Below, one piece after another: positions 15,432-47,410 of a stretch of DNA of 64,000 nt. Below the pieces are notes generated by a model. It had not been told where the DNA came from, searched no databases, and worked only from the letters and a program-made list of their open reading frames with translations. This stretch comes from Ricordea florida. Its lineage: Eukaryota; Cnidaria; Anthozoa; Corallimorpharia; Ricordeidae. The translations under genes and the position numbers were made by a program. The DNA lies in contig OX453279.1 in the NCBI GenBank assembly GCA_949710005.1, positions 19,364,014 through 19,428,013 on the forward strand. The letters run 5' to 3'. Numbering within the stretch: the stretch's first letter is position 1; every line of letters starts with the position of its first letter.

Positions 15432-16436
15432 CACTGGAAAAAATGATAAATTTACATGCACTGTAAATTTTCCTTTTTATATGTAAATAACATGTAAATC
15501 ACCTGGAAAATACTGTAATTATCATTTACAGCTAAAATGCCTTTTTACAGGATCTCAGAAGATACTGTAAAGAAACTGTAAATATTATGAATAGAGCATG
15601 TAAAAAGTAAGAGACATCTTGTAAATTTTTAAGAGACGATCGCCAAGATCATGTAAAAAGAATGTAAAAATTGCCTGCAACCTGTAAATAACATGTAAAG
15701 CTTGGAAGAGCTTGCCTTTGACCTTGTAAATAGGTTGTAAATATTGCCACGACCTTGTAAAAACTCTGTCAATCTCCCAAAGGGACTGTGATTTGACCAT
15801 GCAAAACCCTGTAAATCGCAAAAGGTGGACTTATTTGACCATGTAAAAACTCTGTAAATCGAAAACGGAGACCTGATTTCATTCACTCTGTAGAAACCCT
15901 GGAAATAGGAAAAGGGGGATTGGCTTGACTCTGTAAAAACCCTGTAAATCGAAAAAGAGGGCCTGGCTTGACTCTGTAAAAACCCTGTAAATCGATAGAC
16001 GGGGCCTGGCTTGACTCTGGAAAAACCCTGTAAATCGAAAAAGAGGGCCTGGCTTGACTCTGTAAAAACCCTGTAAATCGACAAAGAGGGCCTAGCTTGA
16101 CACTGTAAAAACCCTGTAAATCGAAAAAGAGGGCCTGGCTTGACTCAGTAAAAACCCTGTAAATCGAAAACGAGGGCCTGGCTTGACACTGTAAAAACCC
16201 TGTAAATCGAAAAAGAGGGCCTGGCTTGACTCTGTAGAAACCCTGTAAATCGAAAAAGAGGGCCTGGCTTGACTCTGTAAAAACCTTGTAAATCGGAAAA
16301 GGGGGCCTAGCTTGACTCTGTAAAAACCTTGTAAATCAGAAAAGGGGGCCTGGCTTGACTCTGTAGAAACCCTGTAAATCGATAAAGAGGGCCTGGCTTG
16401 ACTCTGTAAAAACCTTGTAAATCGGAAAAGGGGGCC
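15432..16436. repeat. Left subterminal repeat array of the CACTG element
   Basis: The first ~350 bp hold many ATGTAAAT / ATTTACAT-type motifs in both orientations. From about 15780 they resolve into a 43 bp tandem unit, roughly 14 copies, with TTGACTCTGTAAAAACCCTG followed by TAAATCGAAAAAGAGGGCCT. Frames crossing it (15629-16451, -) are repeat translations, not genes. The array resumes at 22111 after the composite insertion. The right end of the element carries the same kind of unit in inverted orientation. Confidence 0.9.
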
Positions 16437-16438
16437 TA

Positions 16439-16718
16439 CAATCCTGGCCAAAACGTTTGGGACACTTTTTCTTTATTCCGCAAACTGAGCATTCCAATGT
16501 ATCCCCCTCCCCCTCTGGACAATGTTGGTTTTCAGGAGTTACGGATGTGTCACAAATATTCTACAGTTAAAGGACTTCAACATTGATTGGGGGGGGGGGG
16601 GAGGGGGCAAAATCTTTCTAAGGCTGTATTTATAAGTGTAAATTGTTGGTTTCTAGCATCTTTCACGCAAAAAAGCGAGAACAACGGCAAGTGTCCCAAA
16701 CTGTTTTGGCCAGGATTG
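16439..16718. mobile_element. MITE copy 1 (Tc1/mariner-type ends)
   Basis: 280 bp with terminal inverted repeats CAATCCTGGCCAAAAC(G/A)(T/G)TTTGGGACAC and TA outside the left end. No coding capacity. It contains a C-rich tract and a 13-base G run. It differs from copy 2 mainly in those tract lengths and a few substitutions. Confidence 0.85.
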
Positions 16719-17137
16719 TCCGAAAACTCCTGTTTACCTAGATGATGAAAATGTTGTTATTGTTCACTTTCCCAGGCACTATACTCACAAATGTGAATGT
16801 TTGGGCTGTCGTTTGTTTGTTTTTGATTTGTTTTACCTCATGAATGATGTCTTTTTATAATCCAGTATTCTTGTTAGGAAGTGTATTGCTACACCCAAAA
16901 ACAAACCACTCGGAAAAAAATTTACTTGAAGTGAAAACATTGAAAGAACTGCAAAAAGTAAATTTAAAACATTCCTCGTTATTCAAAGGTGTATTTCTTT
17001 TAATATTCTAGAGAAAAAAGTCTGAAGGGGAAACTAAGTTGCATTTATAGTGCAGGATATACTATTTATTCTTTTGCGCGTGTTAATGCGTCATAAAGAC
17101 AATATTATACTTTTACATTCAATGCGGCTGAAGAAGA
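16719..17137. other. No gene seen
   Basis: Unassigned spacer between MITE copy 1 and the LINE fragment tail; AT-rich, no motif recognised. Confidence 0.4.
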
Positions 17138-18437
17138 ATAGAAGAAGAAGAATAGACTTTATTGAAAATACATGGCAGCCATTAGGCTGAATTGCGTATT
17201 TATGTACAAAATATTAATACTCTAATTACTATTAAATTAATATTTGGCAAACTATAAAATCTAAAATTATGTACAAAATTAAGCAAAAAGGCAAACTCTA
17301 AAAAATGGACTAAAAAGTATCAACATTAAGACTTGACGATATAATAAAAGTGTTCTTGGCTCGATTCGTCTTAACTTTAGGGACATCAAAGGTTCTCGTA
17401 CGCCTTAAAGTGTATCTAGTAGATTTATGTAATGGAGGGAGTAAATAATGCAGCCTATGGCTTTTATCATTTAGGATTTCATTAAAAAATTTATTACATA
17501 AGTTACTATGATGTTCGTTTATCGAGACTAAATCCATGCGAGTAAGTGCTTCGTTATAGTTAAGATCGGGACACATAATAGCTAGCGCCCTCTTTTGTAT
17601 AAGTTCCAGTTCGTGTGTTAAATACTTTGGTAGAGAATAGTAGAACACAGGCACGGCATAGTCTAATACAGATCTTATACATGTAATGTAGAACAACCCC
17701 AGATCTTCACGGGGTACCTTGGCCCTTTTTAATTGAACCAAGAAGTACAACCTTTTTGATGCTTTCTTGATGACTTCATTTATGTGATCGTTCCACGATA
17801 AATCACTTGATAAGGTTATACCTAATAGCTTTGCTCTTGTTACGACTTCAAGCTCTTTTCCGTCAACCTTAACTGGTTCAAATACTTGTTTCATTTTTGC
17901 AAATGAAATTCTGAGTTCTTTACACTTATCTGTATTTAACTGGACTCTATTGTTCTGTGACCATTCAGCTACTTTATCAGCAATAGTTTGTGCACTGCTG
18001 ATTCCACTTTTTGGGACAACTTCTGATGTCGTCGTATCATCCACGTACTTCCAGACACGGAAGTCGCTGAGAACTAGGTCATTGATCATGATAATGAATA
18101 ACCATGGCCCTAATTTGGTCCCCTGGGGGACTCCAGAAGGGACCGAGCCCCATTCAGAGAAACATCCATCTATTAGTTTAATTCTTTGGAAACGGTTACT
18201 GAGGAAATCAATAATCCAGTTGATAATACTTGCTGGTAATTCTAAGTTGCATAGTTTGTTTACAAGGATGCTGTGGTCGATAAGATCGAACGCTTTACGA
18301 TAGTCGAAAAGGATCGATCTGACAGTAGATCCATTTCCATCAGTACCAATTGTCCAATCATGGATCATACTTAGCAAAGCGATGGTGGTGGATGATTTCG
18401 GGACTGCACCGTACTGGTTAGGGTCAAGGACTTTCAT
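17138..18437 (-). pseudogene. 5'-truncated LINE: reverse transcriptase C-terminal part
   Basis: A single open frame of 375 residues (17310-18437) contains the RT core: FDYRKAFDLIDHSILV, GVPQGTKLGPWLFIIMINDL, and the catalytic YVDD in VWKYVDDTTTS. The thumb/connection region follows (LLGITLSSDLSWNDHI, VLDYAVPVFYYSLP). This is a CR1/jockey-like non-LTR element, distinct from the LINE at 39483-43400, which has YADD. The finger region and endonuclease are missing at the 5' edge (18437), the usual result of incomplete reverse transcription or of interruption by the neighbouring Tc1-like element. The 3' tail on the minus strand ends in a TTCTTCTTCT-type repeat near 17138-17160. The surviving frame is open, so the insertion may be fairly young. 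Confidence 0.85.
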
Positions 18438-18470
18438 AGGGAAAACAAAACTGAAAACAAAACATTGGAA

Positions 18471-19571
18471 ATGCCAAAAAGGAGATCAAAAATAACACCA
18501 GAAGCCAAAGCTCTGGCGGTACTGTTAAGAAAGGCAACTTCGAAGTCTTTAAGCTACCGTCAGATCGCCAATAGGTGCAAAATTTCTAAGTCTGAAGTGC
18601 AACGCTTATGTACAAATAACAGCAAGTTGAAGTCCAGAGATCGACCGTCGAAGAATAAAGGAGGGAGGCCGAGAAAGATAGATCAACGCGGAATCAGAGC
18701 GTTAATACGGACTATTAACAAGGTACGAAAGAAGAATGTTAATTTCACCGTGAAAACTTTGGCGGAGGCATCTGGAATAAGTCATCAGGCAAGCAGAAGG
18801 ACTTTCTCGCGTTATTTAAACGAGCAGGGCTTTAGATTTCTTCAAACGCGAAAGAAAGGACTATTGAGTGCGAGAGATCGTTTGGTAAGATTACAATACG
18901 CCCGAAGAATGAAGAAAAAATTGAAGCAATTACCCGAGTTCTGGAGCAAATATGTGGTGTTTTAACTAGATGGGGTGTCCTTTATTTACAAAACTAATCC
19001 ATTAAGTACAGCAACCCAAGCCAAAGCTCGCGTGAGGCGAAAACGATCAGAGGGACTGACTGTAACTGCCAAAGGATCGAAAGATCTTGCAGGAGGAAAA
19101 AGACTGCATGTTTTAGTAGCTATAAGTTATCGAAAAGGTGTAATTCTCCGTGAACCTTATGATACAATGAACGGCAACTTTTTTGCTTCTTTTGTGAGAG
19201 AGCAATTTCCGAGGTGTTTTGTAAGGGCTGGGAGATCCAGAGGCCGACTATTCGTGATGGATAATGATCCATCGCAAGTGTCCAAAGCCGCAAAGTTGGC
19301 GTTAAAAGATATCAGTGCTGAACTACATCAAATTCCTGCTCGTAGCCCTGACTTAAATCCAATTGAGAATGTATTCCATATGGTGAGAAAGATGTTAGAC
19401 TACGAGGCAATTCGTCTAGAAATAGTGTATGAGTCCTTTGAAGAGTTTAAGAGCAGAGTGATGCGCTGTTTTGATTCCGTATCTACTGAACTTATAGATC
19501 GTACAATAAGGAGCATGCCAAAGCGAATCGATCAAATCATTGCAACCCAAGGTGCAAGGATTAAGTATTAA
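18471..19571 (+). pseudogene. Tc1/IS630-type transposase with one in-frame stop
   Basis: From ATG at 18471 the frame runs 366 codons to 19571, interrupted only by TAA at 18963-18965. N-terminal helix-turn-helix DNA-binding domains: LSYRQIANRCKISKSEVQRL, and a second one at ISHQASRRTFSRYLNEQGF, separated by GRPRKID. The DDE core is LDGVSF, VMDNDPSQ and LNPIENVFH, with 34 residues between the first D of DND and the final E. The stop falls two codons before the first catalytic Asp, where Tc1 relatives usually have an aromatic residue, so it splits the catalytic domain. Tc1-type enzymes insert at TA, the dinucleotide found at the composite element's ends, but I cannot show that this enzyme recognises the MITE ends. 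Confidence 0.85.
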
Positions 19572-20109
19572 GCGTAGAAGAAAAGAGCATTATGAATGGC
19601 ATCAATTAAAGGAAACTTGAAACCGTTTTAATGCACCGTTAGCGTGATTATTATCTCTGAGCATGCCGTGCTCCCTGGTAACGCAACACAGTTCTCCACT
19701 TGTACATCGCTTCTAGTTCTTGTTTAACAGGCTACATACAATTGTTATTCCCTTCATATGACAAGTAGCAATTAATGCTATTCGAAACACGGAATATATT
19801 CACAAAGTTGCTTTTAAGTTCTTGGTTTACAACAGTGCTCCATTCAAATGTCAAATGATTTACCAGTATCAACTCTTGAATAAACAAATGACGGAGCACT
19901 GTTCATCTTCTAACTTCGCCGTCTAATGAAAGGAACATTTTATCAAGAATTAAATGAAGGGGCATTCTTGTAGATTATTTATAATGATCGAGAAATAAGA
20001 AATGTTTCTTCGAGGAGAAAGACAGTAAATTCCCACGGAGCACCGTGAAAGAATGGCACGCTGATGCGTTACTCACGCTACCTTATAATTTATATGCCTG
20101 TCATGGTTT
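19572..20109. other. Spacer with a small inverted repeat
   Basis: No gene. AACAGTGCTCC near 19832 and GGAGCACTGTT near 19892 form a short inverted pair, and a related GGAGCACCGT occurs near 20037. They could belong to an end of the Rep-bearing element; this is only suggestive. Confidence 0.3.
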
Positions 20110-21410
20110 TCACTTATTGTCAAGAATAAGTTTCGCAAAACATCTGGGGCAGGGATTTAGACGAAGTTGGTCTTTTTCTGGTATTTGTTTCCAAAAATGG
20201 AAGAAACGCCAGCGAACTGACATCATCTTAGAGTTAGCCTGATTTATCGAGCCACCCTTCACTAAGACCAAAGGAGCGTCTGCTGTTGCGAAGAATGGTG
20301 TGTCTTTGTTGAATTCGATGTCTTTGCTGCAAAAGTTCTTAGGTGCTGGAAGATGGACAATGTCACCTTCCAAAATCTGCAGCAAATCTGACCAAGGAAT
20401 TATAGAAGGGCTCCACCGAAAGTCGTTCACCATAATAATCTCAGACTGTTCAGCTCCAACCCAGGCGAAAGTACCAGTCGCTGGGTTACAGAACGCTCTA
20501 TAAATACATTTGAGAGGAGATAAAATGAAGGTTTTCCCAGTATTAGCAGGTCCGTGGATGTAAATGTTGCGGTATTTTGCTCGTCCTAGGTGAAGCGCTG
20601 AGTAAATAGCATTACAGAAGTATTTTAACATAATACCATTTTTTTCAATTAGACTTTTAGCGCACTGTAACCATTGCTCCTTGCATTCACTAGCACAATC
20701 GCCTATGTAAGCTTCTTCTAGCAACTCCAAGCGACTTTTTTGACTCCTTGCAAGTTGGGCCTCGGCATCCGTGAATTCTTTCGCGAGCTGCAATGCATCA
20801 TCCACTGCTTTGTGACCCCTATTGGCAATGAATTCCGACAGATTTGTTTTTCCAGCGCGATTTTGCTGAACAGCTAAGGCTACCAATTGTAATCGTGAGG
20901 TGATACCGCGCGATTGAATCAATTGAGTTACATCATATACAGACATCCGTCTTCGTGATGTCTTCTTACTTTTTGTTGCACCCTCTGCCCGTTTCCCCTT
21001 TCTCTTGCGTACACTTATGGCTTTTTCAGTTCGCGGCTCACCCTTGTCGTTGAGATCCGGGTGGTTGTGTGAAAACAGCGCTTCGGTGTCTTCTTTCACA
21101 GTGTACCTGTAAGCACTGTAATAGGTGCTATGAACAGCACTAAAGTTAACCTGAATATGAAATTCCTTGTCCAGGAATGAACGAACATTTGCCCATCTCG
21201 TTTTCTTGTTTAGTTTTATAGCCATATGTGCAAGTGCAATACTTTTGCTGTTGTTGTTTTATCAAACGCATGGACTATTGCTGTAGCAAAGGTTTCCCGA
21301 GAAGGAAAAGCAGTCAAATTTGCCCGACTGTAGGTTATTAAATAAACTTGCCTCTGCTGGCGAATTCCTAGGCTCTCCATAGCCATACGGCTGCACTTTT
21401 CAACTGCCAA
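20110..21410 (-). pseudogene. HUH endonuclease / SF3 helicase Rep protein, broken
   Basis: The upstream part (21216-21410) has the first Rep motif region QVYLITYSRANLTAFPS. The main frame (20110-21225, 371 residues) opens with HMAIKLNKKTRW, a remnant of the HUH motif, then the putative nicking-tyrosine region YYSAYRYTVKEDTEA. A basic linker follows. The SF3 helicase has Walker A GPANTGKT (about residue 228), Walker B IIMVNDFRW, and motif C TPFFATADAP. The two parts are in different frames, with sequence apparently missing between them at the HUH motif, so nicking activity is probably lost. HUH-SF3 Rep proteins drive rolling-circle or rolling-hairpin replication in CRESS-type and parvovirus-like elements; related copies are widespread in cnidarian genomes. 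It is either an old viral integration or a Rep-based transposon. Confidence 0.75.
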
Positions 21411-21832
21411 CTCAGACCAACGGTTGACAGCTTTTTTTACGGTTATTTCGTTTTTCGTAGTGGACCACTCAGAAAACAGAGTTGTCTTCCGTGGATTATG
21501 ATTGGTATATTTAAAACCATTCTGTTCATTCTTTATTCAGTCAGTAAGTTGTTGTAGTGGTTATGCTTGGTAGCAGCGTAACGGAAAATAATTTGGAAAT
21601 TAGCGAAATTTCCAAATGACGTGTTATTTGTAAGGCACAAAAACACTATCTTTGGAGCTTTTCAACAGTAAACATTTGAAAAAAGAAACTAATATTCGAT
21701 AAGTAGAGAGTGCTTAAGCCGTCATAAAGCGTTAATTCTTTCTTAGAGCTTGTAGAAACATAACCCGAGAATTATCCTGTACGGTGAGTTACAGCTGAGC
21801 CTAGTATCTTGGACTGTAGTATATATCTCGGA
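21411..21832. other. No gene seen
   Basis: Spacer between the Rep fossil and MITE copy 2. It should contain the 5' end of the Rep element; no hairpin origin or terminal repeat was recognised. Confidence 0.35.
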
Positions 21833-22108
21833 CAATCCTGGCCAAAACGTTTGGGACACTTTTTCTTTATTCCGCAAACTGAGCATTCCAATGTATCCCC
21901 CTCCCCCCCCCTGGACAATGTTGGTTTTCAGGAGTTACGGATGTGTCACAAATATTCTACAGTTAAAGGACTTCAACATTGATTGGGGGGGAGGGGACAA
22001 AATCTTTCTAAGGCTGTATTTATAAGTGTAAATTGTTGCTTTCTAGCATCTTTCACGCAAAAAAGCGAGAACAACGGCAAGTGTCCCAAACTGTTTTGGC
22101 CAGGATTG
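21833..22108. mobile_element. MITE copy 2 (Tc1/mariner-type ends)
   Basis: 276 bp, the same ends and orientation as copy 1, with TA outside its right end (22109-22110) and CGGA outside its left end. The frame crossing it on the minus strand (21973-22209) is not coding. Confidence 0.85.
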
Positions 22109-22200
22109 TAGCTTGACTGTAAAAACTTCATACACTTTTTAAATCTGAAAAGAGAGAAGAATTTGACCCCATAAATTACAAGAAGCATTTGACAGCAACA
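22109..22200. repeat. Remainder of the left subterminal array
   Basis: Continues the 43 bp unit interrupted at 16436 (TAGCTTGACTGTAAAAACTT) and then fades out by about 22200. This continuity shows the composite block is an insertion within the array. Confidence 0.75.
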
Positions 22201-22737
22201 ATTAATCAAACATCATTTTCATGCCTGTTTTTAATTGCAAGGTTTTTGTTAAAACCTATCTGTATAAAACGTTTCTTCATCACCATGAATGACAATGTTG
22301 ATCACTAAAATTTTCAATAATCAGTACAACATCAAAAACAATGCTGCAATTATAAATACATATAGCTTGCTAAAACGTATTTTTCTTTGTTTAAACAGTT
22401 CAATACTCTCATAAAAATATATTACCTTAATTATTGAGCTCATACAGTATAATCTTCATAACTATTGCTAAATTCATTTCGTTATTCAATAAATAGAGGA
22501 AACTTTACAGCCATTTAAATTTTATCATTGACTGTTGAAAATATTTTAATTAATTATTTTAAACAATTGAAATTTTATCATTGAGTGTTGAAAATATTTT
22601 CACAAGTGAGCACAGGGAATGAGTGCAATATTTTTCATCACAAGATAAATTTTGTATCTTCAAGTGGTCATGTAATGTTCATCACTGTTAAAAAAAGATA
22701 AATTACAGTAACTTTCTAGGACGTGCATAGAAACAAC
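22201..22737. other. AT-rich spacer, 3' of the SAM gene
   Basis: No frame or repeat of note apart from a duplicated phrase (AAATTTTATCATTGA at about 22515 and 22570). It is likely the 3' UTR and downstream region of the SAM-domain gene. Confidence 0.4.
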
Positions 22738-24306
22738 CTAATTTTCCCCATCAGATGACTCTTTATCTGCAGTGATTAAATTATCATGAGTTATCACTTC
22801 ATGTTCATCCTTTCTTCGCACAATATTTTGTTCATAAACCCTTTGTCCCAAGGACCTTAACAAATCACTTTTACTTGAAGTGTTTTTGTACAAAATGCAA
22901 AAGTGTTTGCATTTGTTTTTCAGGACTTTAGATGGTACACTTGATATGGTCTTGGCCTTTAGGTAGTGAAGTGCAACCATAATTGCTTTATCTTTGGCAA
23001 CTTACAAGAAGAGCAAATATGTTTTATTAGGGCTTGTGACATAACTTCTGTTGTATAGGATTATGCCTGTAAAATACACGTATATGGTAATTTGATTTTT
23101 CCCTTTTGATGAGAAAATTTTTCCAAAATTATTCATTTTGATATAAAAGCACTAGTGGGAGAGATTTTATGTATTCTTTTGACAACCTTATTTGAAAAAG
23201 GCTCTGAAAAGTTTCATACTTTTGATCTACAGCTGTGCAGACATTATTTTGCTTCTGGATAATGACTTACTACCTAAGAAATAAAAAATGCAATTCAACC
23301 ACCATAAGAGACTACCAAAAATATCAAACCCATGTGGTGGTTGATGGAATGTCCTTAAAATCAACTGTCTGTGTACTTACAAAACCTGTCTTTAATAGCT
23401 CCAACTCATTCTCCTTCTTATTCTGCAAACGTTTCTGTTCATACTCTGAATTTCCTACATGTATGAAAACCAAATAGATAATATCATGTTATCATTGATA
23501 ATAAGCAAGAGGGTTAAAATTAACTTCAGTGCTTGGCTGCCACTCAGGCCAGTATCCCGGAAATCCTAGTGGCCCAGGTCAGAACAAATTTGCCCTTCTA
23601 GTGATTGTCCTCCAGTCTAACATAAAAAAATCTTGTATTATGAGAAGCCCAGATTTGTTCGAATTAGACCAGAACTGGGCAAAATATAGCCAGCGATTCA
23701 CAACAGAATACCCACAGGAGCTCCAGCTCTTGCTGGGTCTTATTGAAAGGACTTCCACAGCTTTTAATTAAGGCCATTCCATTGTTTTTTCATTGTCATG
23801 AGGGTCAAATGCTAACCCCCCCGAGTGGGCATGACCAAAATTCATCCCAACAGAAATATTTTTGATAATTTAATCTTCAAACTCTATATTAGTATAGACG
23901 TTGCCTCAAACTTTGGACTGCAAATTTGTCATTTTTTGCTTCTAATGTGGAATGGCCCTTAATCATTCAAATCATACGCTTTCTTATATAAAAGTGTATA
24001 ATAATGATAGAAATGTATATGAAAGTAAATGTACGAGCAGTGTTGTGTAGAAACGAGCTGCGTAGAGCCCTGGGTAGATTTTGGGTCTCACGACATTAAA
24101 ACAAAATAGCAACTAGAAAATCATGGAGCATTCTTAGCAATCTTAAATTAACGAGCGGTTTAGATTTTTGCAATTTCAAAACTGACCAATAGGCTCCAGA
24201 GAGTTGGATCAAAGATAAATAATTTCCAAGTCTCACTCCAATAAGAATGCAGTGTCTGCGAATGCTGTTTATTTACAATGGAAAACACAAGTTTGCCAGT
24301 CAGATG

Positions 24307-24353
<47 letters not shown>

Positions 24354-24463
24354 GCGAGATACTCGGGTTTCCTATGGGTGGTGCCTACTAATACAGGGAT
24401 ATTTTTTGCGCGGTTTAAAGCTATACGGAGAAAGCAGAACTTAGCAAATTCTTTTGGTATTTC

Positions 24464-24494
<31 letters not shown>

Positions 24495-27400
24495 CAGAGA
24501 TAATTAAGCTTCAATTTAGACACCATATTGTGTGGACAATCATTATTGGGTGAGCAGCAACCAAAATCCCAAAATTACTTTTCCTTATTTATTGTTTAAA
24601 GAAAAACCTTATTAAGCTGACACCTCTATGAATTAGATGCAGACACCAACGTAAAATGTGGCTTAACTAAAGTACAATAATATACCTGATAGCACGGGTG
24701 CAACACTACACTGATGCAAGGCAATTTTATTTCTTTCAATAATATCAATATATGAACGACATATCACGATACTAAATACACTAAAAATTGTTCCATCTTC
24801 AAAGTTTGCTAATTGCTGTCTGAAAATTGTTTAGTTCAAGTTCCCCATTGTGATAGGAAAACAAATGAAAAAGCAAACCACCTCTGCATATAAGCATGTT
24901 CTTCTCTGAGTCAAGATAATTTTATTTCATACCATGAGAAGATGTACATGTGCTGTTGCAGCCCTACTTCACTTGATAGTGCTAAAGATTGCCACCCACA
25001 GTTTTTTCATTTGAAAAACCAACAGCATGACAATAATTGACAAAACAAATTTTAATTTGCATGAACATTGTTAAGACACAAGTACATGAGAATGTCCATG
25101 ACTGGACACTAAGCTTGTACAGGTAAGTGTACAGTTACTGAGTTAGTATACACAAATTCTTCATTGGTAAATTTTTATTGTTTACATTAGAGCATTCTCT
25201 TATTCACTGAATCCAGGTTTTACTGTATTAGTTTGCTGCAGCCGGTTAAAAACAAGTTGAAAAAGACCACTAAGTAAGAGAAGTATAAAAAAAGAAATGG
25301 ACATACTCTTTCCTTGTGGGTAGTGGACTGTTCTGCCCGCTTCCTCTTTGAATTCAGATTTGGTTCCTACATGTAAACAGGGAACACTTGTTAACATGTC
25401 ATGCTGATGGAGAACAATAATAGCCATACAAAAATGAATACCCACTGAATAAAGGCTGTCATATACAGAAACAGTTACATAATAGAAAGCTGGACATGTA
25501 TTTTACAGCCAAGTGCAGCAATGACAATGGCTACATGTACATGTAAATGTAATTAGCTCCATAACAATGGCAACATTGACCAGTGTAATGAGGAAAAACA
25601 ATCAAGCTGCATGTGGGCCACGTATTTTAGTACACTTCTTCCCATAAATTATCCCACAAATCAACAACATGAAATGACAAGATTTAAGGTTTTGACGACA
25701 ACAGAAGCACACAACAGTGAATTTCTCATACTCTATATATTAATTCAAGAGTAGCAATCCAATCCATGAAAATTATGAAACTAGGTTGACATCATTTTAA
25801 CCTGAATTTTAACTACAATAGCTACAAGCCCAAAATGTTGAGTTTGAGTGATCACTTAAGAAAGATTCCAACAATAATGATCTGACTAACTTGCAAACTT
25901 TGATGATTAATTTTGGAAAACATGCTTGCTACTGAAAGGTGGTTGCAAGAAATGTTCAACTGTATTTGTACAATGCTACTGAAACTGTCATAGAACAACA
26001 TGTACTGTATATTTCACCTTTTTCTGGTAGGCAGATGGCTTTCTCAGGGAACTCATGATGCTGCTGATATGCCTTTTGGCTTTTACAGAGTCCATTGTCA
26101 GAACTCCCTCCACATCACCTCCTGTTACACAATAAACTCCATATAGGGCCTTTACTTCCTTATCGTCAAGAATTTGTTGGCACAATGCCATGTTTGTTTT
26201 GCTGTCATCCTGTGTGGTTCCGTTGCAAATTTTCAGTGCACCTAATCCTTGCCACTTAAACAAATAAATTATTAAGTGACAATGTACTCAAATTAAAAAA
26301 AGGAAAATCATGCGAACAAAAACAAAACAAAGATCTTCCCTTACCCCAACAAGGATCTTTAAATGTGACATGTACTATACTGTACATCTCACGTTGGACT
26401 TTGTACTACCAGTGATCAACAAACATGCTTTTTTTAAAGAAACAATCCAATTCCATTTATTCCACATTAAAAGATATAAATCAACTGTGGCAGAAAGATA
26501 CTTGCTTTACTTGCCAGCTAGTTAACACTTTTCTACATAACCTGATTGACTCCCAAGTTTTTGGCAACTAATGGAATACATGTATAAATTCAGGACCTAA
26601 AAAATGAACTTTTAGCTGTTATTTGATGAGGCTGAGTATGATACATGAATGAAGAATCATGCAGATCGAGGAGGGAGTTATTGGCCAATGCGGATAACAC
26701 CCTTCAAGATCTGTATAATTCTTCATAATATTATCATATGAAAGCCTAATTCAATAGTAATATTGTTTTGTTATTCATTCAAAATATTTTCAGAGCTAAA
26801 AAATGACAAACTTACTTCCTTATTCACTCCTTAATTAATTACATTGTAAGCTTCAGTTCTTATGCATTATGCCACAAAAACATGGTTGGCTTCACAAAAT
26901 TCCTTGTCCTTCACAAAGTCAAGGTTCAGCATTTCTTTTAAGTATCCATTCCAACCAAATTTCAGAACAAAATCTTCCTTTCATACTTGTGAGTTCAAAT
27001 TTACTGTACAGCTTTGGCCAATTCCCCTGCAATTGTAGGTTGTTTGACATTTTTTTCCCCAGAAGATAAGGTCAAACAGTAAATGATGTCTCTTCATTGC
27101 CTTTTCAGTGTTTTAATGATATTTTTATGTCAATAAATTTGTCAAGATTGTTGTTGAGTTTCAAATTTAATTTGCTTGTGAGCAGGCATTTTGGCGCCCT
27201 CTGAAGCCATTGTGGCATGACAAGATGCCAATCGTTCAATAATTTTATTATTGGACAATAATAATATTGACATCATTCATCCAATAATAGAAAAATTATT
27301 GGATGACTGACATCATGCTAACTGGTTCTAAGGTTCTAAGTCAATCCAAAACTGAGAAATAGTTTGAATGAATAATTGTCCAGGTTATAGATGTAGACCT

Positions 27401-28539
27401 TTCACACCACTGGTTTTTTAAATGCTGAATTTAACAAGTGGTCAAATTGCTTTAGCTCAGGAAACTTTGGTTAATACCCTATCACTTAAATACTGTACTG
27501 TATTTTCAATACATGTACCTTGTTTTGAGTGGATAGCTCTTTCACTTTACGGTTAATTATGGAGTTGAATCTATTCCATGCATGGTTTGCCACTTGTGCA
27601 CTTAGATTTGTCTTGCACATCTTTACCAGTTGCTTTTTTGACAATTATTGTTGACCTTCCTTTGTGGGGGGTTTGACAGCTTTTTCTAGATAATTAAAAT
27701 TGAACAGTCAGAAAACACACAAGACCATATGATGTTTGGAATAGCTATATAATTATTAAATAATAGCTACATACATTTAATAATTAAATAATATACAGCT
27801 GTAAGTTAATTATAGTGTACAGATGATCCCAAGATTGAGGCAAATAGTCCAGGGTAATAATTTATAGCCTGGATAACCTATTTTAGTAAATGTACATGTA
27901 TCAACAACTGGAGAGGGTATATTACCTTCGCACAAATTGTTTAATTTGTCTTTAAGGCGGAGAATAGTACAAAGAGGAATTTCCAGGGTATTAATCAGCT
28001 CTGCGTTGTTTCCAAGAAGTCGAAGATCGTCAATATCCTGAAACTGAAAGCAAAATTCCGCCGAGAGTTTTAAGGTGGTCACGAAAACGAGCAAACTAAA
28101 AATCTTTTACTAATATTTGCTGTAAGCCTATATATACCTTGTGCTTGTCCACCAAGACGGGGATGAGATCCTGAAAACCATTTTGCGTCAAGAATTCCTT
28201 AGCTGAACCAACTTCGGGCTGAGAAATGTACAAAATAGATTTCATTCAGCCCGACCCATAGAGTAATAAATACTTGTACAAAGGAAAATCTAAATGTGTT
28301 GTAAACTCCACCTGGCCGCGTTCAGCGAACAATATTTTAACCATGTAAAGGGCTAACATTTTAACTGAAATATGGTTTATGATCTCCCGCGCGTCTCATC
28401 GAAGAAGCGTGATCTTCAAAATATGGATGTTTCAGAGGTTTATGCTTGTGGAAACGACGGAAAAGGACTTAAAACAAGTATAAGAAGACAATTTTACCTT
28501 GTTAACTTCTAGAGACTCTGAATTTGTCGAAGAACTCAT
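22738..28539 (-). CDS. SAM-domain protein carried by the CACTG element, multi-exon
   Basis: I assemble exons by GT/AG junctions: 28498-28539 (MSSSTNSESLEVNK), 28138-28218, 27926-28037, 26018-26247, 25307-25366, 23386-23454 and 22738-22991 (stop at 22738). Phases agree for exons 1-5 and for 6-7. The 5-6 join is one base out of phase, so a short exon is probably missing between 25307 and 23454. Exons 2-3 read FLTQNGFQDLIPVLVDKH and DIDDLRLLGNNAELINTLEI with PLCTILRLKDKL, a good match to a SAM fold, a protein- or RNA-interaction module. Exon 4 (ILDDKEVKALYGVYCVTGGD) is unrecognised. Exon 5 has a basic NSKRKRAEQ patch like a nuclear signal; exon 6 is Glu/Lys-rich. There are no stops. It starts 217 bp from the transposase start on the other strand, suggesting an accessory protein, comparable in position to TnpA of plant CACTA elements, though no sequence similarity is claimed. 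Confidence 0.6.
23772..23958. mobile_element. 187 bp MITE with TTAA flanks (piggyBac-type)
   Basis: Ends GGCCATTCCA and TGGAATGGCCC are inverted repeats, and TTAA stands on both sides (23768-23771 and 23959-23962). No coding. It lies in an intron of the SAM gene. Confidence 0.65.
24290..24500. repeat. Dispersed-repeat-like segment
   Basis: A more GC-balanced patch (TGCGCATACGTTCTGCGCAT ... GGGGGTAACCATGC) in an AT-rich intron. It resembles a dispersed repeat I associate with coral genomes. The overlapping frames at 24247-24482 are not genes. No second copy occurs in this window. Confidence 0.3.
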
Positions 28540-28755
28540 CGTTTCATGAGAGGTTTCGATTCAACCCAACGAAATACACTGTACAAAATCCCGCCAAAAG
28601 TATCCTGTCGACTCTCGGCAAGGCTACCAAGCTTTGAGCGACCGCATTGTTGAGGACAGCGGCTTATCTTGCACGTTTTACTCTACATGTGACGGCGAAG
28701 AGCAAAGTTAGAGTTCATTCGATGTGTTAGGATTTAGTTTAATAGTTACAGCGGA
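28540..28755. promoter_or_regulatory. Candidate bidirectional promoter between SAM gene and transposase
   Basis: The ATG codons of two divergent genes are at 28539 (-) and 28756 (+), leaving 216 bp. The interval is richer in G+C than its surroundings (GACTCTCGGCAAGG, GAGCGACCGCATTG) and lacks a clear TATA box. Shared control of the two element genes is an inference from the spacing. Confidence 0.5.
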
Positions 28756-31700
28756 ATGGAAAACTCGGAAGATCGTACAGGTAGGTTGGGAGACTCGCAT
28801 TTTGTTTAATGGACTGACAAACTTCTTACATTCATTTACATAATATTTTACATGCACTTATCAATGTCTTCAAAGAAGTACAATTCCCCTCCTCTGCAGT
28901 TTTACTTTCTTTCAGTTTTAATTTCCTTTAATAAGAAATGTCACGAAAAGTAAATCAAAATTTCTTGTACTATTGAACAAGACAGCAAAACAGTGAAATC
29001 CTGGTTCACTTTCCTGATGAACAAGATAACTTTAATTTTGTTTCTTTGAGTATCTTGTGGCTCTTATTTATATTTACACCACAAAGACTGCATTGTACCC
29101 AATTTAATAGTGATATGGTACCTGCATGTACGTGTATGATAGCTCAGTAGCCACAAACCTCTTTTTCACAGGTGAAAAAAAAACCATGCTATTGCCCTCT
29201 TTGTAATGGAGAGCTGCGTCATCAAAGAACTGTTAAAACTCACCTCGAAGCCTATTTGCATGGGCAGTCAATGGACTTATCGGGAGACAGCGATGGTGAT
29301 GAAGGTGTTTTTTCTACACACTATGCCGAGGCTAGTTTCATGGCTGGCCCAGAAACTGGCTTCTCCTCATTGCTTCAAGCTGAAAATCCTGGCTTACTGA
29401 GGTCAGACAGTTGTGAAGATGTAGGAAATTCCGATGCAAGTGATCTCATGAGTGATTCTGTAGATCTTGATTCAGAGCAATCGGAAATTGGCTCTGTGCC
29501 TTTATCATCAAATGAAGATAACAGCGATGATCCTGGTCCTGATAAGCCAATAGATGTTGGTGAAGACAAGATAAAGGAGTTTGTTCTCAGAACACTCACT
29601 TCAAAAGTAAACCATGGTTGGTCTCGGGAAGAAACTATTGCACAAATAAGAAATTTTTATGAGGTACTTAATGATGAACGCATCCCTCATAAAAACTGGC
29701 AAGTTGTTTTAAAGTTTCTTAAAACTCTGGGATATCAAGAACCTCGACACTATAAAATTTGTTGTGGGGATGATCACATCAGACTTCTTGACTATGGAAC
29801 CCCTTGCCCAGAGTGTGACAAGGACTGGTTGAAGTGTATTGACTATTATGTACTGGGTTTACATTTAGAGGACATTTCTTTGGACTCAGATACCACAGAA
29901 GCACACTTGGCTCATTGGAAGGAACGCGTTGCCTGGTTTGGAGGAAAGCCGCATGGGATTAAGTACAAAGAAATCTGGCATGGAGAGAGGTTTGGGACAC
30001 TGAAACAAATACTCTTCTACCAACAACGTGCCCGCACTGTGGCAATGTATTGACCACATCAGAAATACAAGAGGCTGCTCGTCCAGGTAGCTCTTCTACA
30101 GATCCAGTACAACTTCGTTGCACTGAATGTGTGGTCACATTTTTGCACACACCTCGGTTTATGCGAGGGAATCCCCTTAATCAGGCCTTTATCTTTCATG
30201 AGGATGGTTTCAATGCTTTTGTAAAGAAGAGTAGAGGAATGGCCACCATCCAACTTTGCAGTGCCTGCACTTTCAAGGATGAACGGTCAAAGGGAAAGTA
30301 CCTGAGTGTTTACAGCTTTATTCCCTCATGTAGCATTGGAGAGGGGATTCCACACAAACTTGATGCCTTTCTAAAGCCCCTCATGGATGATGTGGTTGAT
30401 CGTTTTATCAATGGAAAAGATATACATATTCCACACCCGATACGCATTGGAGACAGTTTAATTCCTGCCGGAAATCACAAGGTCAGAATGCTTCTCCTTT
30501 TAGGGACTGCTGACATTAAAGGACATGCAGAATTGACTTTATATGGTGGAGGTACTGTAAGCAAATTACCATTCAAGTTTAGACATATAAATATTTGATG
30601 AGTAATTTTTAAGCGCCAAATTCAAAAGACTCTTGAGGGAAAAGGCAAAGTGATGCAATTAAACGTTAAGGGATTTGACCAGAAGCAATATGTGTATATG
30701 TACATGTACATGTACCTACCCACAATGTATACACAATCATCATTCAGGACAATCTTTTGAGCCCACTGCTTAGCATCACATGGGGAAGTACAGGTAATAT
30801 TCATGGACACGCTACAGACTTTTTACCCAGGGAAACTTCACTTTTTTTTTTTTTTACTTTACATGTAAAAACTAATTTTCTCAGTGTGATCAAGTTTCCC
30901 CCAGACAATTTGCCTAGGAGAAATTTCATACCCTAGAGCTTGTATTTATGTCTCAAGAACAATAGAGTTTCCCTTGACAGCTAACCAAGACACTAGTAAG
31001 TGAATATTTTGATAAAAGAGCCAGACATACACATATCACTTTGTGACAAGCGACACATGCATCTTATCTTCTCTATCGCATTTTGCAACTCTTAGCGATA
31101 CATATTGTCATTTGGATTACAACCATCTGCAGTGTTCACCAAGCAACACTAACAATTAGCTAGGATGTTTTTGAATTCAGACTGCCATTAAGCCAAAACC
31201 AAAGCAATTTCTTCAGTCAATCACAACAGATGCACACAAACAGATGAGCCAATCACAGTACAAAGAAAATACATATGTGCATCTGGTGTTTATTTGTGTT
31301 TATTTATGGGAAATGTATGTATTGGTTTGCTTTTACTTATGATTGGTGCAAGATTTTAAGTCAATCACTAAGGTTAGTTAATGCAGAACCAGAGCAATCA
31401 TGAAATTACTTTGACACTCAATTGAAAATCACTCATAACTGTTATTATCATTATCATCATCGTTATTATTATTATTAAAGTACATTTTGTTACAACTGCG
31501 CAATAACTTGATTATAAGGTTGTTTTGCTGAGAGACAAAGACTCCAGAAGGAAAGTGGTGTGAGTGGGGTTACCATTCTCTACACACTCCATAAACTGTA
31601 TGGCTTTGATCCAGTCCATGACATGGTAATTGACAGAATGCACTTGTGTTTTAACCTTTTACGAAAGGAATTCATTAATAAAATTTGGCCTGATAATGGA

Positions 31701-33934
31701 GGAAATGCTGATGTTTCAGTGACTGACGGAACACCAGCTGCTGGTGGACTAGTAGAACGAGGAGCATTTGGAAAGGCTCTTGATGCAGTGCAATGCACAA
31801 GAGAAGAGAAAGCTAGAGGTGTTGCAAAGTTAAAGAGTCTCACCGACAAATTAGGCAGTTGGAAATCTGATGAATTTGTCAAGTAAGTGTTTTATTTTAA
31901 CACTGTCTCCAATTAATATATTTCTAATTTGTACATGTACATTGTGTATAATTATTTACTGTGTAATGTACCTGGACTTTGCCAAAGTACAATAACTGTA
32001 CATGTTCATACACATTCAAAACAGAAAATCTTGTACTGTCAATATCCATTAATAATTTTTAGTGTACTTCTTAGCAGTGGTTAAAATGATGCACTATTCA
32101 TGCACATTAAATGTCATAAAATACTGGACCAAAAGTACTAAACATTTCCATGTAATGTGCATGAATAGTGCATTATTTTAACTATTGCTAACAAGCACAT
32201 TATAAAAAAAAACAGTCAGGTATACACTTTTGAAGTCTTTTTGTCTTTATTATTTGTTTGAACAAAAATACATGCATACATAATTGTAAGTCTGGGCCGC
32301 CTAGATTAGCCCTGGCTACTTGCGGGCCAACAAATATTTTTTGTGCAATTAGGAAAATACAGATGTCTTGTTTGTTTTGTTTGTATACATGCTAAATTGC
32401 CAAAATTACATCTCACCAAGAAACCAATGAAAAAGCTGAATGAGTAATGGCCAATATTAACATTAAACAATATTAACATTAAATTGCTACTTTATGTTTA
32501 AAATAGAGCCTATTGATAAAGCTATTCTTAAAACACTGTAGTGCCACAGTGTAATAACAATCACAGATTTCTTTCTTGTTTTCCTTCAAAAACAGGTTTG
32601 CCTCAGTAGCTAGGGAAGTGTTGGCTGAAAAAACTCCTTGCAAAGCCTATGACTCATAAATTACTGCCTGTGCCATAACCCAATTGCTTTACAGTACAAG
32701 TCTGAGGAACTTTGGATGGAATGAAAGGAACATTTCAAGGTTAAGAGGACTGACATGGAGTCATGCTATTCAAGCAGAAGAATATTATGGTCCAGACTTC
32801 TGCTCCGAGAATCTAGAGTATTCAACACATATTGCTGATGAAATTCAGCGTCACTCTAGCCCTGATAACTATTCATGTGAATTGTACGAGAGGGCCTTTA
32901 GATCCCACAAGCTACAGAAAAACAATGCAAAGGGATTAGAAAAAACGTATGCTGAAAGAGAAAATATGCGCCATTTTCTGCAAGTATACCAACAGAAGAA
33001 TGGACCTCTCTGCAAATATGATGATGGGGGGGACACCTTTTCGTTTGATGAAGGGGTACTTGGAGGCAATGATCCTTTTCATTTACATGAAAATTCAATT
33101 GCTGCAGCATCTTCCTTAATTCGCCATTCCAGCAACCCTGAGTCTCCCAAACTATGGCATGCAATCAAAAATGGTGTTGCTGTGGGTAAAATAAAGTGCA
33201 AATTGTTTGATGATTATCAAGTGGCAGACATAGAGAGATATCTGAAGCATGAGAATCCCACATTGGACATTGAAATGCCTGCTTTTCTTCAATCTCTCAC
33301 ATCTGTCGTTATCCAAGATCAGTTCAGAATGGTTGTCAAACTTACCAAAGGTGACACACGCATTGTTAGTGGTGGAGACAATGATGAGGAGGAATGGATC
33401 ATGGAAATTACTCACTTGATTCAAGTAGGGCCATTTGCTGAGCATTTTTTTACCTTCATTGATGGGAAGTATTATGTCCCTGGATTCCATCAAGGTCATG
33501 TTGCCAAACACACATGGACACTGACACCAAAGCTTCTACCTCGTACATACAGAAGAGCCAGTGTCCAGCCACTTTCCAAGTTCAAGAGAAAGGTTGTCAT
33601 ATATCCTGACCCTTCTGATCTAGATAACCCAAAATATTTTCTTGCTATTGATCTTTACAATGCTGAAGTCAACAAAGATGTTCCTGTTCCTCTATTTCCA
33701 GAAAATGGAGATACAGTAAAGGTAATGGGCTCACGTAATGAGACCTGGTATGGCAAAGTATGCCAGGTAGACATTCCAAATCACACACTTAATGTACAGT
33801 GGTATCAGGAAACAAGACGGCAAGATGTTTGGACATTGACTAATCATGAAGACACAATCCGTTTTGTATCTCTTCTTGCTAGAGTGCAAACAAGGAGGGT
33901 ATTTGGTGGATTTCGATTCTTAGACCTTCAGTAA
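28756..33934 (+). pseudogene. EnSpm/CACTA Tnp2-like transposase, multi-exon, with lesions
   Basis: Exon 1, 28756-28780 (MENSEDRT, donor gtaggttgg). Exon 2 from 29172: zinc finger CYCPLCNGELRHQRTVKTH, an acidic linker, then WSREETIAQIRNFYEVLND, YGTPCPECDKDW and KYKEIWHGERF. A frame change near 29993 leads to TLLPTTCPHCGNVL. The catalytic core begins FLKPLMDDVVDRFINGKDI and LLLGTADIKGHAEL (first Asp). The exon probably ends near 30553. Exon 3, about 31535-31883: YGFDPVHDMVIDRMHLCFN (the D-x-M-H motif of Tnp2). Exon 4, 32597-33934, with in-frame TAA at 32657, then DNYSCELYERAFRSHKL and a C-terminal GDTVKVMGSRNETWYGKV, a possible Tudor/BAH-like barrel. A nine-A run at 29175-29183 also breaks the phase from exon 1. 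Three lesions imply a dead copy unless some are base-call errors. It would cut at the CACTG ends. Confidence 0.75.
32075..32187. repeat. Hairpin-forming inverted repeat in a transposase intron
   Basis: GTTAAAATGATGCACTATTC (from 32080) and its reverse complement ending at 32181 form 30 bp arms with one mismatch, extended a few bases outward, around a 42 bp loop. It lies in the intron 31884-32596. It is either a small MITE or a transcribed hairpin. Confidence 0.65.
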
Positions 33935-35378: not shown

Positions 35379-38339
35379 TTACATTAATGCAGAAGAAAGT
35401 ACTGTGTTTAAGTGTGCAAGTTCTTTTAATGCATCTGTACTCTGGGGTCGCTTCTGTGGTCGAAAATGTGACATCGATTTACCAAGCTCAAGAAGTTCCT
35501 TGGCTTAGTCTCCAAGTGCCCCCTTCATTTTCCTCATAGTCATACAGTACATGTAGCCAAAGGAGTATATGTCACTTGCAGTTGTAGCCTTGTCACCATT
35601 TGAAATCTCTGGAGCCACATGAGGATAATTTTCCCTGTACAGTCTTCTTTCATTAGGAGTCATTACTTTATGCCTTGTTGATTCTGAAAAGGAATTCACA
35701 CAAGAATACAAGATTATGCAATTCATCATCCTCACCATTGCACTTTAATCATAAGAGGAGATTGTAATAATGTGTTCAAGACAGACCCCCCATTTTCTCA
35801 ACATCTTTGTGCCCTAAGATAATTCATGAACAATAGACCTTACCTTCTTGTACAATAACATGTGATGATACTCGGGAGATTTGATACTTTCTCTTGTTCA
35901 TTAAAGAAAATGCACACAGATATACTCATGCTTGCATGCATTCTTTTTAATGAACTAGAAAAAGGATCAAATCTCCTGAGTATCATCACATGATCTGTAC
36001 TGGGAAAACAAAATGTACAAGCAAATAAGGCCTATTGCTACTATGCAGTATCTGGCTGGTTTAGGCAATTGAGCACAAGGTAAATTGCTTTCATCTAATT
36101 AACTTGCATCATGAGCAGACGTGTTGTTTCGATTCAAACTTAGGCAAATTTAAGAGAAACCCATCCAGTCTCCCCTACAAACCTGATGGTTAAGCACCTT
36201 ACGCGAGAAGTGAGTTTTGTGGATAAAACTCAAGAACGAGGAAAGTGACCAAGGTATTGACAGGCAGTGATTTTAGGCTTGTGCCTTTCACAGGAAGTGG
36301 TAATCCTAGTAACAAAAAGAAACTACAATCCTGTTTCAGATAAATCATGGGCAAAAACATGCTGTGTTGTTTCTTAACTGAGGATGAACTCACATTCCAT
36401 TAGATGCACTCCTTTTTCAGAAAAAAAGAGGCCAGAAATGTTTCTAGAAACACTGATCACCACACATATCAAAGCTACTTGATCCACTGTTTTACAAAAT
36501 TACTACTAAACATGTACAAAACTGTACAAACCTTGAGCATTTTCAATGAAACAAGCCTTGCCAAAATCAATTATAACACCTCTTTTCACTCCCTGTGCAT
36601 CCTCCAGAACAATGTTGTTTCCTTTCACATCATTGTGTAGAACACCAACTGAAAAAATGTGGTGTAATGCTTCAGCAACAGACAGTAGTAGTTGTAAGGC
36701 CAAGCACAAGTTCTGTCTTGAGTGTTGACTTTCTTTCAAGAAACATGAATATGTTTCAGGTCTTCCTGCAGTCTTGCACAACTTTGTTGCTAAGACAAAT
36801 GGTGAGCTAGTGGTGTGAATGCCAATAAGGAGGGGAATGCTGGGATGACTGGGAATTTTTAGAAGGATCTTTGCCTCTGCATGAACATCCTCTAGACTTG
36901 CAAGTCTTACATCTTTATAAACTTTAAATGCAACAGGAATCCCTTTGTATGTTCCTGCAACACACTGCCCAAAGGTTCCTTCACCTATTAATGACCCATG
37001 TGCAAAGTCTGACATGTCTTCTTTACAAAGATTAAGGGAGGGGATGCAAAATGGTCTTAACTTTAAACTTGGCTGTTGTTCTTTGGTTTGTAATACACTT
37101 GAATGCCCATTCTTTTTTCTTGAGGCATCTTGTTGGTGGTTTGTATCGCATGCAGACTGAATTGCATTTTCACATGGCTGTTCAGTGGGTTCTTTCTTTG
37201 ATGAGGATGGTGTTCTTTTTGTTTCTTTTCTAGTGATATGTGCAACCCATAATAAAACCATTTACTGGTACAGCTTCTCCTACATACTCCAGGGAAGGCC
37301 TGCTTGACTATTTTACCGCATTCCTCTTTCGTAAGCTTCCCGTCAAGATTACAAAGAAAATCTCTTATGACTGTAATGGCTAATTTATCTGCCGCCTTGC
37401 CTGCCACAAAATGTTCCTTCAACCTTAAGAAACAAATAATAGCGATGCAGAACTCAGTGTAACTGTTAATTACGGGTAATGATTTACTACACTATATTCC
37501 AGCTTATTCCAGTGGTGGAGTTCAACAGGAGTGGACTAAAATAAGGCCAGCAGTGCTGAGATGCCAGAAACAAATTAAAACAAAGCCCGCAAGAGTGCCC
37601 CTCAATTACCTTGGAGTCTGGATCTGCCACTTGCCACTATAGTCTAGGAAGTGGGCAAGGGGGGAGGGGGTGAGGTTAGAGCAGATCTGCATATTCTTAG
37701 GCCCATTAAATGGAGAAATGTCCATTTAGGAGGGCTCCTGGAGCTACCCTGCAGCAAGCCAACTTTTCCTACGTGTACATTTCCTTGCAAAATATGGCAA
37801 ACTGTTTACATAAGAAACAGAATCTTGACTGGCATGGTCTGACCCTCTTTCAAAAGTAGGAGTCAACTTTTTGCCATGGAAACACTTGCCTGTTTGGGTC
37901 AACTAAGCCAAGGCTAGGCGAGTGCCGTTTTGAGCTCTTGACTCGGTTAAATGAGGCACCAACCATTCGGTACAGTTGACAAGGATAAGGGTAGCCTTGC
38001 ACAACGTTTCTCCAATTGAACAGGGCTTTAAAGGATCTATGTAAGTCACGGCAGTTTTGTTGTTTTTCGGGTCAAAACTATAGCCATTCCCGGGAGTCGC
38101 ATCATACGTTCGGTCAGGCTAAGTAGTAATAAGCTTACATTTAAGCAAAGCGATAACAAACACAATTCAAAGCATCTCGCATCGTGGCAGCGATACATAA
38201 TGCTTACTAGCGGGGCCACGTAAATCCTTCTTGTTAACTATAGTGTTGATAAAAAGCTATTTACTCACCTTTCTGCTAGTTCTGCTCGTCGTTGCAGCCT
38301 GAAGTCATGGTTCAGAGGGAGGTCTTTGAAGAAAGCCAT
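35379..38339 (-). pseudogene. Protein kinase gene captured by the CACTG element
   Basis: Exon 1, 38269-38339 (MAFFKDLPLNHDFRLQ, donor gtgagtaa). Exon 2, 36532-37423, joins in phase as ELAER-LKEHFVAGKAADKLA. A one-base frame change near 37250-37300 leads to a Lys/Ser-rich linker and the kinase N-lobe and active site: glycine loop IGEGTFGQCVAG, VAFKVYKD (catalytic Lys), EAKILLKIP, catalytic loop VLHNDVKGNNIV, and DFG in VIIDFGKACF. Exon 3, 35379-35683, has the APE motif VAPEIS and SDIYSFGYMY. A TAA at 35505-35507 is followed in the same frame by RPQKRPQSTDALKELA, the expected last subdomain. HND replaces the usual HRD, and the frame could still be catalytic. Ser/Thr specificity is likely but not provable. 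Such kinases occur as host genes in corals; its place inside the 24 kb element makes capture or hitch-hiking the simplest reading. Confidence 0.8.
35853..35993. repeat. Hairpin-forming inverted repeat in a kinase intron
   Basis: CATGTGATGATACTCGGGAG (near 35860) and CTCCTGAGTATCATCACATG (ending near 35993) begin arms of about 46 bp, with a few mismatches, around a loop of about 40 bp. A small MITE or hairpin RNA source, in the intron 35684-36531. Confidence 0.7.
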
Positions 38340-38829
38340 TTTTGACCGAGCTCAAGGGCACCGAGAATAAGTGTAAACCTGGAGATGAGTTTGAACCAGT
38401 CCCCCCTCGGGCTTACATCTTTTTCCCTTCTTTTTTCTCGCTTTTACTCGCTTTTAGCGCTTTCAGCAGAATACTCTGGGAATTTATCCACACTTACCAG
38501 TTCCAGGCTCCTCACGGTAAAACGGCCATGTTTTGTTGATACCCAGGCCCCGGCCTACTGGCATCCGAAACAATGATACCAAAATTTCGGTTTGAATTTC
38601 CGAAATTTCCAGGTGTCAAATGGAACGGTTTTTTTCCACTTCAGTGGACCGGTCGTTTCGAGATGAACGTTCCGGAAATTACCGTTCCATTTGCTTCTAA
38701 ATCGAAAATTCCGGAAGTTTTGACTAAATGGATCGCAACCACGGTTCAGTCCGTTCCGTTTCCTTGGTGCGAAATTAGTGCAGTTGCATTTGTCCAAAGA
38801 AATAATTCTATTGAAATGGTAAGCGCTCA
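38340..38829. other. Upstream region of the kinase gene and a repeat-like patch
   Basis: 38340-38570 is the 5' flank of the kinase first exon, with pyrimidine-rich stretches. 38576-38790 has many GGAA/TTCC motifs (CCGGAAATTACCGTTCC, ATTCCGGAAG), suggesting an internally symmetrical short repeat. No gene: the overlapping frames on both strands encode nothing known. Confidence 0.4.
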
Positions 38830-39482
38830 GGGTTTTTACAACGACAAGCCAGGCACCCATATTCGATTTACAAGGATTTTCAAAAGTCAAAGCAGTGCCC
38901 CCTTTTTAGATTTACAGGGTTTTCACAGCGACTAGGCAGGGGCCCCTTTTTCGATTTACAGGGGTTTTACAGAGTCAAATCAGGCCTCCTTTCACGATTT
39001 ACAGGGTTTTTACAGAGTCAACCTAAGCCCACTTTTCGATTTACAGTGTTTTTACAGGGTCAGATCTATTCCCCTTTTTCGATTTACGAGGTCAAATTAA
39101 TTAGTCCCCCTTCTGCGATTTACAGTCTTTTTACAGCGTCAAGTGAGTACTGCCTTTCAGCGATTGTAAACGCTTTTTTTACATGTTATTTACACGATCT
39201 TGTAAGCAATTTTTGCAGCTTATTTACAAAGAAGATACCGTAAATATATGTAATATATTTTACAGTATATTTACATGTTCCTCAAATAATCACTGCAAAA
39301 TAGGACCATGTAAATACTTTTTACAGTAGATTTCCATGTTATGGTAAAACTGTAAATTTCATGTATATTACGTTTTACAAGTACTCATCTTGTAAATTGA
39401 AATTTACAGAACATGTAAACTAAGGTTTACATAATGTAAATCGCGATTTACATGTGCTGTAAATTTTTCAACTTTTCCAGTG
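38830..39482. repeat. Right subterminal repeat array of the CACTG element
   Basis: About seven units of CGATTTACAGGGTTTTTACA followed by GAGTCAA and a C-rich phrase: the reverse complement of the left-array unit. From about 39160 to the end it turns into dense ATTTACAT / ATGTAAAT motifs in both orientations, mirroring the outer part of the left array, and ends with TTTTCCAGTG. Confidence 0.88.
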
Positions 39483-46990: not shown

Positions 46991-47410
46991 TTGGCATGGC
47001 TCGGATAAGAATGGTACGGGTACCAGAAAATGTGGTTGTTATATCTTGTTGACACGTCCTTTTTCTTCCGCGCCAAAAACTGTGAGATTCGTTTCTGGTA
47101 CGGGTGCCGGGCTCAAGTTTTTGACCAGCAGACACACACGGCACCCGAGAACGCATGCGGCACTGTTTTTGTTATCAAAACATGGCGGAGGAGAAGTATG
47201 TGGAATTTCTCCTTTTGAAAAGGTCGCCCATCTGGCGGGGAATATGAAAATTATGCAGTGGCAAATGGAGCAGTCTAGCATTTGTTTTCTGGGAGAAGAG
47301 GAAGAGGCGATACAAGTTTTTCTTGACAATTGCAGCAGTTCTCGCCTGCAATGTTCCTGTCGATCGATGATTTTGGATGGTTTGTGGTAGCAGAAACATA
47401 ATTCTCTGAG

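Follow-up and report, generated by a model that had tools for sequence, protein, structure and literature searches.

A probable decayed EnSpm/CACTA transposon in an interrupted LINE of Ricordea florida

Positions 15432 to 39482 of the window, a 64-kb stretch of the Ricordea florida assembly (C8:19364014-19428013), are best explained, with a probability of roughly 0.9, as a decayed and formerly autonomous EnSpm/CACTA cut-and-paste transposon that lies in a LINE, later received a nested block and has perhaps acquired the gene for a predicted RFX-kinase. The sequence contains CACTG tips, a 3-bp target duplication, inverted subterminal arrays, an insertion point in the LINE reading frame, a Tnp2-like gene and a divergent second gene. 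The locus offers a CACTA element whose two ends are located with single-base precision, together with a relative order of events, which as read from the sequence was probably LINE, then CACTA element, then nested block. All genome searches were made in this one assembly (538 Mb, 48 contigs).

Ends of the element and the host LINE

The left terminal tip CACTGGAAAA (15432..15441, forward strand) and the right terminal tip TTTTCCAGTG (39473..39482, reverse strand) are flanked by the two copies of a TTT target duplication, at 15429..15431 and 39483..39485. The host LINE, with reverse transcriptase and endonuclease pieces, occupies 39486..42290 on the reverse strand and its C-terminal part resumes from 15431 downwards; the reading frame is rejoined exactly when the block and one TTT are excised. 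The inverted termini, the TTT at each flank and the restored LINE frame were all found as the first-pass annotation had claimed.

Each 10-bp tip occurs only once in the 64-kb window, the expectation from first-order simulations being 0.14 and 0.16 occurrences per 64 kb, and a pair of tips with matching 3-bp flanks was seen in none of 300 such simulations. A looser rule of 10 matching bases in 12 gave one further tip pair (22683-40426, with CAT flanks), and a rule of 12 bases in 14 with two of three flank bases gave three further pairs among those enclosing the transposase. As such pairs exist, the tips alone would not decide the boundaries. What is decisive is the inverted 43-bp array, the asymmetry of the CTGTAAA motif, the relatives of the LINE and the left end of a copy on contig C14.

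The left subterminal array (15803..16437, forward strand) consists of about 14.7 copies of a 43-bp unit, and the right array (38828..39143, reverse strand) consists of the same unit, inverted and about 79% identical. The two ends belong together because they have this unit in common in inverted orientation. The 7-mer CTGTAAA occurs 23 times forward and twice in reverse in the left 1 kb, and twice forward and 12 times in reverse in the right 0.66 kb; in the rest of the window, outside the element, the counts are 8 and 7.

When the joined LINE protein was used as a query, 19 relatives were found. The first-pass annotation had the LINE running on across the junction, and in 15 of these relatives the alignment does continue, with residues flush on both sides. 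One of the others (P0077) has a gap at the junction and three (P0078, P0080 and P0081) stop short of it; the alignment immediately before the junction is variable, with gap columns in some rows. The 15 flush relatives indicate that the insertion entered a LINE that had been uninterrupted.

The left 371 bases had one other match in the genome, C14:11155663-11156032, 99% identical, a count that is a lower bound as very common words were skipped by the search. The flank preceding CACTGG in the C14 copy is GCTGTTTA, which is not LINE, and that in the window is GATGATTT; the blastn alignment begins at 15429, TTT being present in both flanks. The left boundary is therefore fixed by an independent insertion with a different flank. 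The right boundary is given by the tip, the duplication, the array, the LINE and one similar terminus, on C11, with no second copy.

Elsewhere in the window, to the left of the element, there are a Pif1-type helicase fragment at 2664-3341 (PF21530, E = 1.6e-6; possibly Helitron-derived), a pair of inverted repeats of 838 bp, 97.5% identical, at 7164-8001 and 8920-9757, and a 685-aa open frame at 12060-14117, which had no Pfam match at 0.001 and looks transposase-like by eye. To the right are ORFs at 43673-45549, of which 44479-45549 resembles YqaJ and viral alkaline exonucleases (PF09588, E = 4.7e-12), and two ORFs at 47402-48438, the first with a DDE_Tnp_4 match (PF13359, E = 2.3e-11), from a separate DNA transposon.

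The nested block and related elements

The left array is followed by a block of 5.67 kb (16439-22108) bounded by two direct repeats of about 280 bp. The first of these (16439..16718, forward strand) has the ends CAATCCTGG...CCAGGATTG and the second (21833..22108, forward strand) is 96% identical to it; TA dinucleotides stand on the outer sides, at 16437-16438 and 22109-22110, so that the block with its TA edges spans 16437..22110. Inside it are a reverse transcriptase fragment (17310..18485, reverse strand; PF00078, E = 1.3e-15), a Tc1-like transposase whose two ORFs are separated by a stop (18396..19571, forward strand; PF13358, E = 8.8e-12 in 18966-19571) and ORFs that were read as SF3-helicase-like (20110..21536, reverse strand), in which no Pfam family was found at 0.001.

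The C14 copy matches the window at 15429-16346 (93.6% identity), 22126-24519 (95.0%), 24517-26271 (95.4%) and 26270-27509 (97.2%). It jumps from the array, at window base 16346, to base 22126 within a few bases and has no 5.67-kb block. The array lengths differ between the two copies and the exact empty TA site is not visible in C14. The 60 bases after the block gave a score of 25 against the 43-bp unit, a weak result given that the best of 500 shuffles scored 24; the missing block in C14 counts for more. From these comparisons the block is most likely a later insertion into the CACTA element, although its absence from C14 could also be due to loss there.

When the 5,672 bp of the block are discounted from 24,051 bp, the element proper measures about 18.4 kb. 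The view of the whole 24 kb as one mobile unit therefore holds in that a single CACTA unit sits in the LINE, but the size was inflated by the 5.67 kb that the C14 copy does not have. EnSpm elements of such a size class have been described before, those of a red alga measuring 16-20 kb (PMC6431247). The reverse transcriptase, Tc1-like and SF3-like ORFs, which might pass for accessory genes, lie in the nested block; the genes of the element itself are the Tnp2-like transposase, the divergent second gene and perhaps the RFX/kinase gene. The locus also holds a lesson for the sizing of giant transposons, as roughly one quarter of the 24 kb was probably inserted later.

The match to the C14 copy stops at window base 27509, and the 34 kb examined there did not yield a right end. 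A search of the assembly with the left end gave no further member of this subfamily in which both ends are present. The expectation of further copies with the two termini was accordingly borne out in part, by the 99% identical left end and by a relative on C15 with the same tips at both ends. This relative is 11,988 bp long, has CACTGGAAAAAATC at both ends and encodes a related transposase, and its subterminal repeats are different; blastn of the window element against it gave no DNA match at 1e-3. The kinship of the two elements, as judged from sequence comparison, is one of tips and protein. Loose pairs of termini near the transposase relatives C11b, C3, C7a, C7b and C14 (at 16.67 Mb) were also considered and were unconvincing.

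The closest transposase relative is on C11, with 37-53% identity by segment (tblastx). Next to its transposase is a terminus, CACTGGAAAACTTGAA, accompanied by CTGTAAA units; the other end of this relative was not found.

Transposase and second gene

The Tnp2-like transposase is present as disabled pieces at 29151..33934 on the forward strand, with ORFs at 29151-30053, 29963-30598, 31518-31886 and about 32576-33934 that are collinear with the C11 relative by tblastx. The window's own ORFs did not match PF02992 even at a limit of E = 5, where the few hits were weak and to unrelated families, and nothing usable came from searches of the separate ORFs against Pfam and NCBIfam; the C-terminal ORF had no match in phage records (tblastn). 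A relative, L004, matches PF02992 with E = 1.9e-5 and 24.4 bits, below the Pfam cut-off of 28.6, and the window transposase matches L004 with E = 9.7e-23, the pieces being alignable. The 424-aa transposase ORF had 34 matches in the genome, including the window itself, the next best being 41% identical. Relatives of the last piece include P0001 (97%) and P0002 (93%). A transposase relative with 48% identity, P0012, is from the sea anemone Actinostola.

The transposases of the window, the C11 relative and L004 have in common the motifs H-x-D-G, T-[AG]-D and SSPDNYxCExYERA, the first two of which presumably carry the D residues of the catalytic triad. The definition of EnSpm/CACTA transposases includes C(2)C and H(3-4)H motifs between the second D and the last E (PMC12730594). 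In this region the C11 relative reads GCRRCLVCG...KRHHYY and L004 reads CRRH; no CxxC segment was found when window 30491-31560 was read in all three forward frames, and it appears to have been lost from, or to be undetected in, the window copy. The frame is broken near 30000 and there is an in-frame stop near 32657. Together with the missing CxxC segment these defects make a working transposase unlikely, and the window copy of the element is probably dead.

The second gene (22765..28055, reverse strand) is divergent from the transposase. Its segments, 28055-27933, 27650-27540, 26254-26126, 26110-26015 and 22872-22765, are found in unchanged order in the C11 relative with 37-47% identity (tblastx), where one summed E-value applies to the set and none to each short segment, and some short rows look spurious. 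A further segment, 28204-28136, was reported on the other strand only. The distance from the last segment to the terminus is about 1.1 kb in C11 and 7.3 kb in the window, the latter falling to about 1.7 kb after the nested block is discounted.

Several features characteristic of EnSpm/CACTA elements are therefore present: terminal inverted repeats of the form CACT[AG]...[CT]AGTG (in the relatives, at both ends in C15 and at one end in C11), a 3-bp target duplication (TTT in the window, TTG in C15), subterminal repeats inverted between the ends, and a second gene beside the transposase, conserved in C11 by tblastx sum statistics. The tips, the duplication, the subterminal repeats and the kinship of the transposase assign the element to EnSpm/CACTA.

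In maize En/Spm, TNPD cuts at the tips and TNPA binds subterminally, which provides a model for the proteins of this element. Its transposase would have cut at the CACTG tips; the CTGTAAA units of the arrays would have been bound by a second protein of the element, which would also have paired the ends. Reinsertion into TTT would then have produced the 3-bp duplication. The 5.67-kb block framed by the 280-bp repeats would have landed later at a TA within the left array, either at once or stepwise. Less surely, an RFX winged helix and a kinase may have been acquired between the transposase and the right end.

The RFX-type domain and kinase, and comparison with known systems

A protein kinase ORF is located at 36506..37261 on the reverse strand (PF00069, E = 5.6e-18), with GEGTFG, HND and DFG sequences that we take to be the kinase motifs. 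An intron splits the domain, a probable second kinase exon lying at 35505..35744 on the same strand (PF07714, E = 0.0057). The kinase is preceded by an RFX-type winged-helix domain (37237..37422, reverse strand), the frame being broken between this domain and the kinase domain. The 62-residue N-terminal domain has the RFX winged-helix fold of the RFX transcription factors 1dp7 and 8zjr. In all four kinase relatives scanned, PF02257 gives a weak match (E = 0.0052 to 0.11), the best with 17.8 bits against a cut-off of 27; for this reason the domain is called RFX-type and not a member of the Pfam family. For the kinase relative P0035 a structural model of poor quality, with a mean pLDDT of 47.7, was obtained, and its fold matches were set aside.

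The RFX-winged-helix/kinase fusion is perhaps one of the element's own genes. There is, however, a substantial, if smaller, chance that the kinase is not cargo and sits in a further nested insertion, at about 34 kb to 38.8 kb. Related kinases are very abundant in the genome, with at least 150 matches including the window's own (150 scored of 314 candidates), no kinase was found in the C11 and C15 stretches, and the RFX part is seen in none of the other 42 loci examined, although 11 of these (L027-L037) span only 1.5 kb beyond the match. Against a further insertion, self-comparison gave no repeats around the kinase, at a limit of E = 1e-8 that would miss short ends, and 11132 bases is given as the length of the longest contig for the transposase relative P0028 and also for the kinase relative P0051, which suggests that they come from one contig elsewhere.

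Dozens of the kinase matches, for example L027-L037, score identically and contain an open frame of 298 aa. This pattern suggests that kinase genes are spread by some other mobile element. At C7:10258001-10278000 (L018-L019) a transposase relative and a kinase relative were seen by eye about 9.6 kb apart. These two are possibly parts of one element, whose ends were not found; it was the only such co-location in the genome noticed by eye.

A macrotransposon, in which one CACTA element supplied the left end, another supplied the right end and kinase, and the two moved jointly with the intervening DNA, is improbable. Such an origin would agree with the end of the C14 match at 27509 and with the relatives that have no kinase, but the C11 relative repeats the order of terminus, second gene and transposase, so that at least 15432-33934 looks like one element, and the right array is built from the left array's own 43-bp unit. 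A mis-join of unrelated blocks within the LINE during assembly is most improbable. Nothing in its favour was seen, exact tips, a 3-bp duplication and exact rejoining of the frame not being expected from it, and the left boundary recurs in C14.

If the RFX-kinase gene belongs to the decayed CACTA transposon preferred here, the predicted kinase might target the chromatin of the element or of the host; that it would do so by, for instance, phosphorylating silencing or transcription factors bound there is a guess. A wider proposal, which we regard as rather unlikely, is that an animal CACTA lineage encodes a predicted DNA-binding kinase, the RFX-type domain docking on element or host DNA and the kinase modifying bound factors, and that this protein would be a regulator or an anti-silencing factor with a role like that of transposon-borne TET/JBP. 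In the titles and abstract openings listed from the open-licence literature, an RFX-kinase within a CACTA element was not described. Should the gene be cargo, it would provide a testable case of a transposon carrying a signalling enzyme that binds DNA. With related kinases so abundant, one could then ask how often transposons spread kinases in animal genomes.

Among known systems, the element agrees with EnSpm/CACTA (CMC/CMCT clade; maize En/Spm, animal EnSpm) in its CACTG tips, 3-bp duplication, subterminal inverted repeats, Tnp2-like transposase with introns and second gene. It differs in its size of about 18.4 kb without the nested block, its 43-bp tandem arrays, the RFX-kinase gene inside it and the disabled state of the copy. 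Plant CACTA transposases are likewise described as producing a 3-bp duplication, with a supporting role for the ORF2 protein (PMC4158355). The enlarged EnSpm of the red alga Chondrus crispus, with 4-5 ORFs in its 16-20 kb (Kojima et al. 2013, as cited in PMC6431247), is of the same size class and also has extra ORFs, but its host is a red alga and not an animal. According to PMC12730594, fungal EnSpm, IS3EU and other DNA transposons carry TET/JBP genes and IS3EU also carries an alpha-kinase gene. As described there, these too are DNA transposons that carry an accessory gene for an enzyme, in one case a kinase encoded on the strand opposite the transposase; that of IS3EU is an alpha-kinase, in fungi, whereas the one here is a PF00069 kinase with an RFX-type domain in an EnSpm element. 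The RFX transcription factors, finally, have the same fold as the 62-residue domain, which here stands beside a protein kinase.
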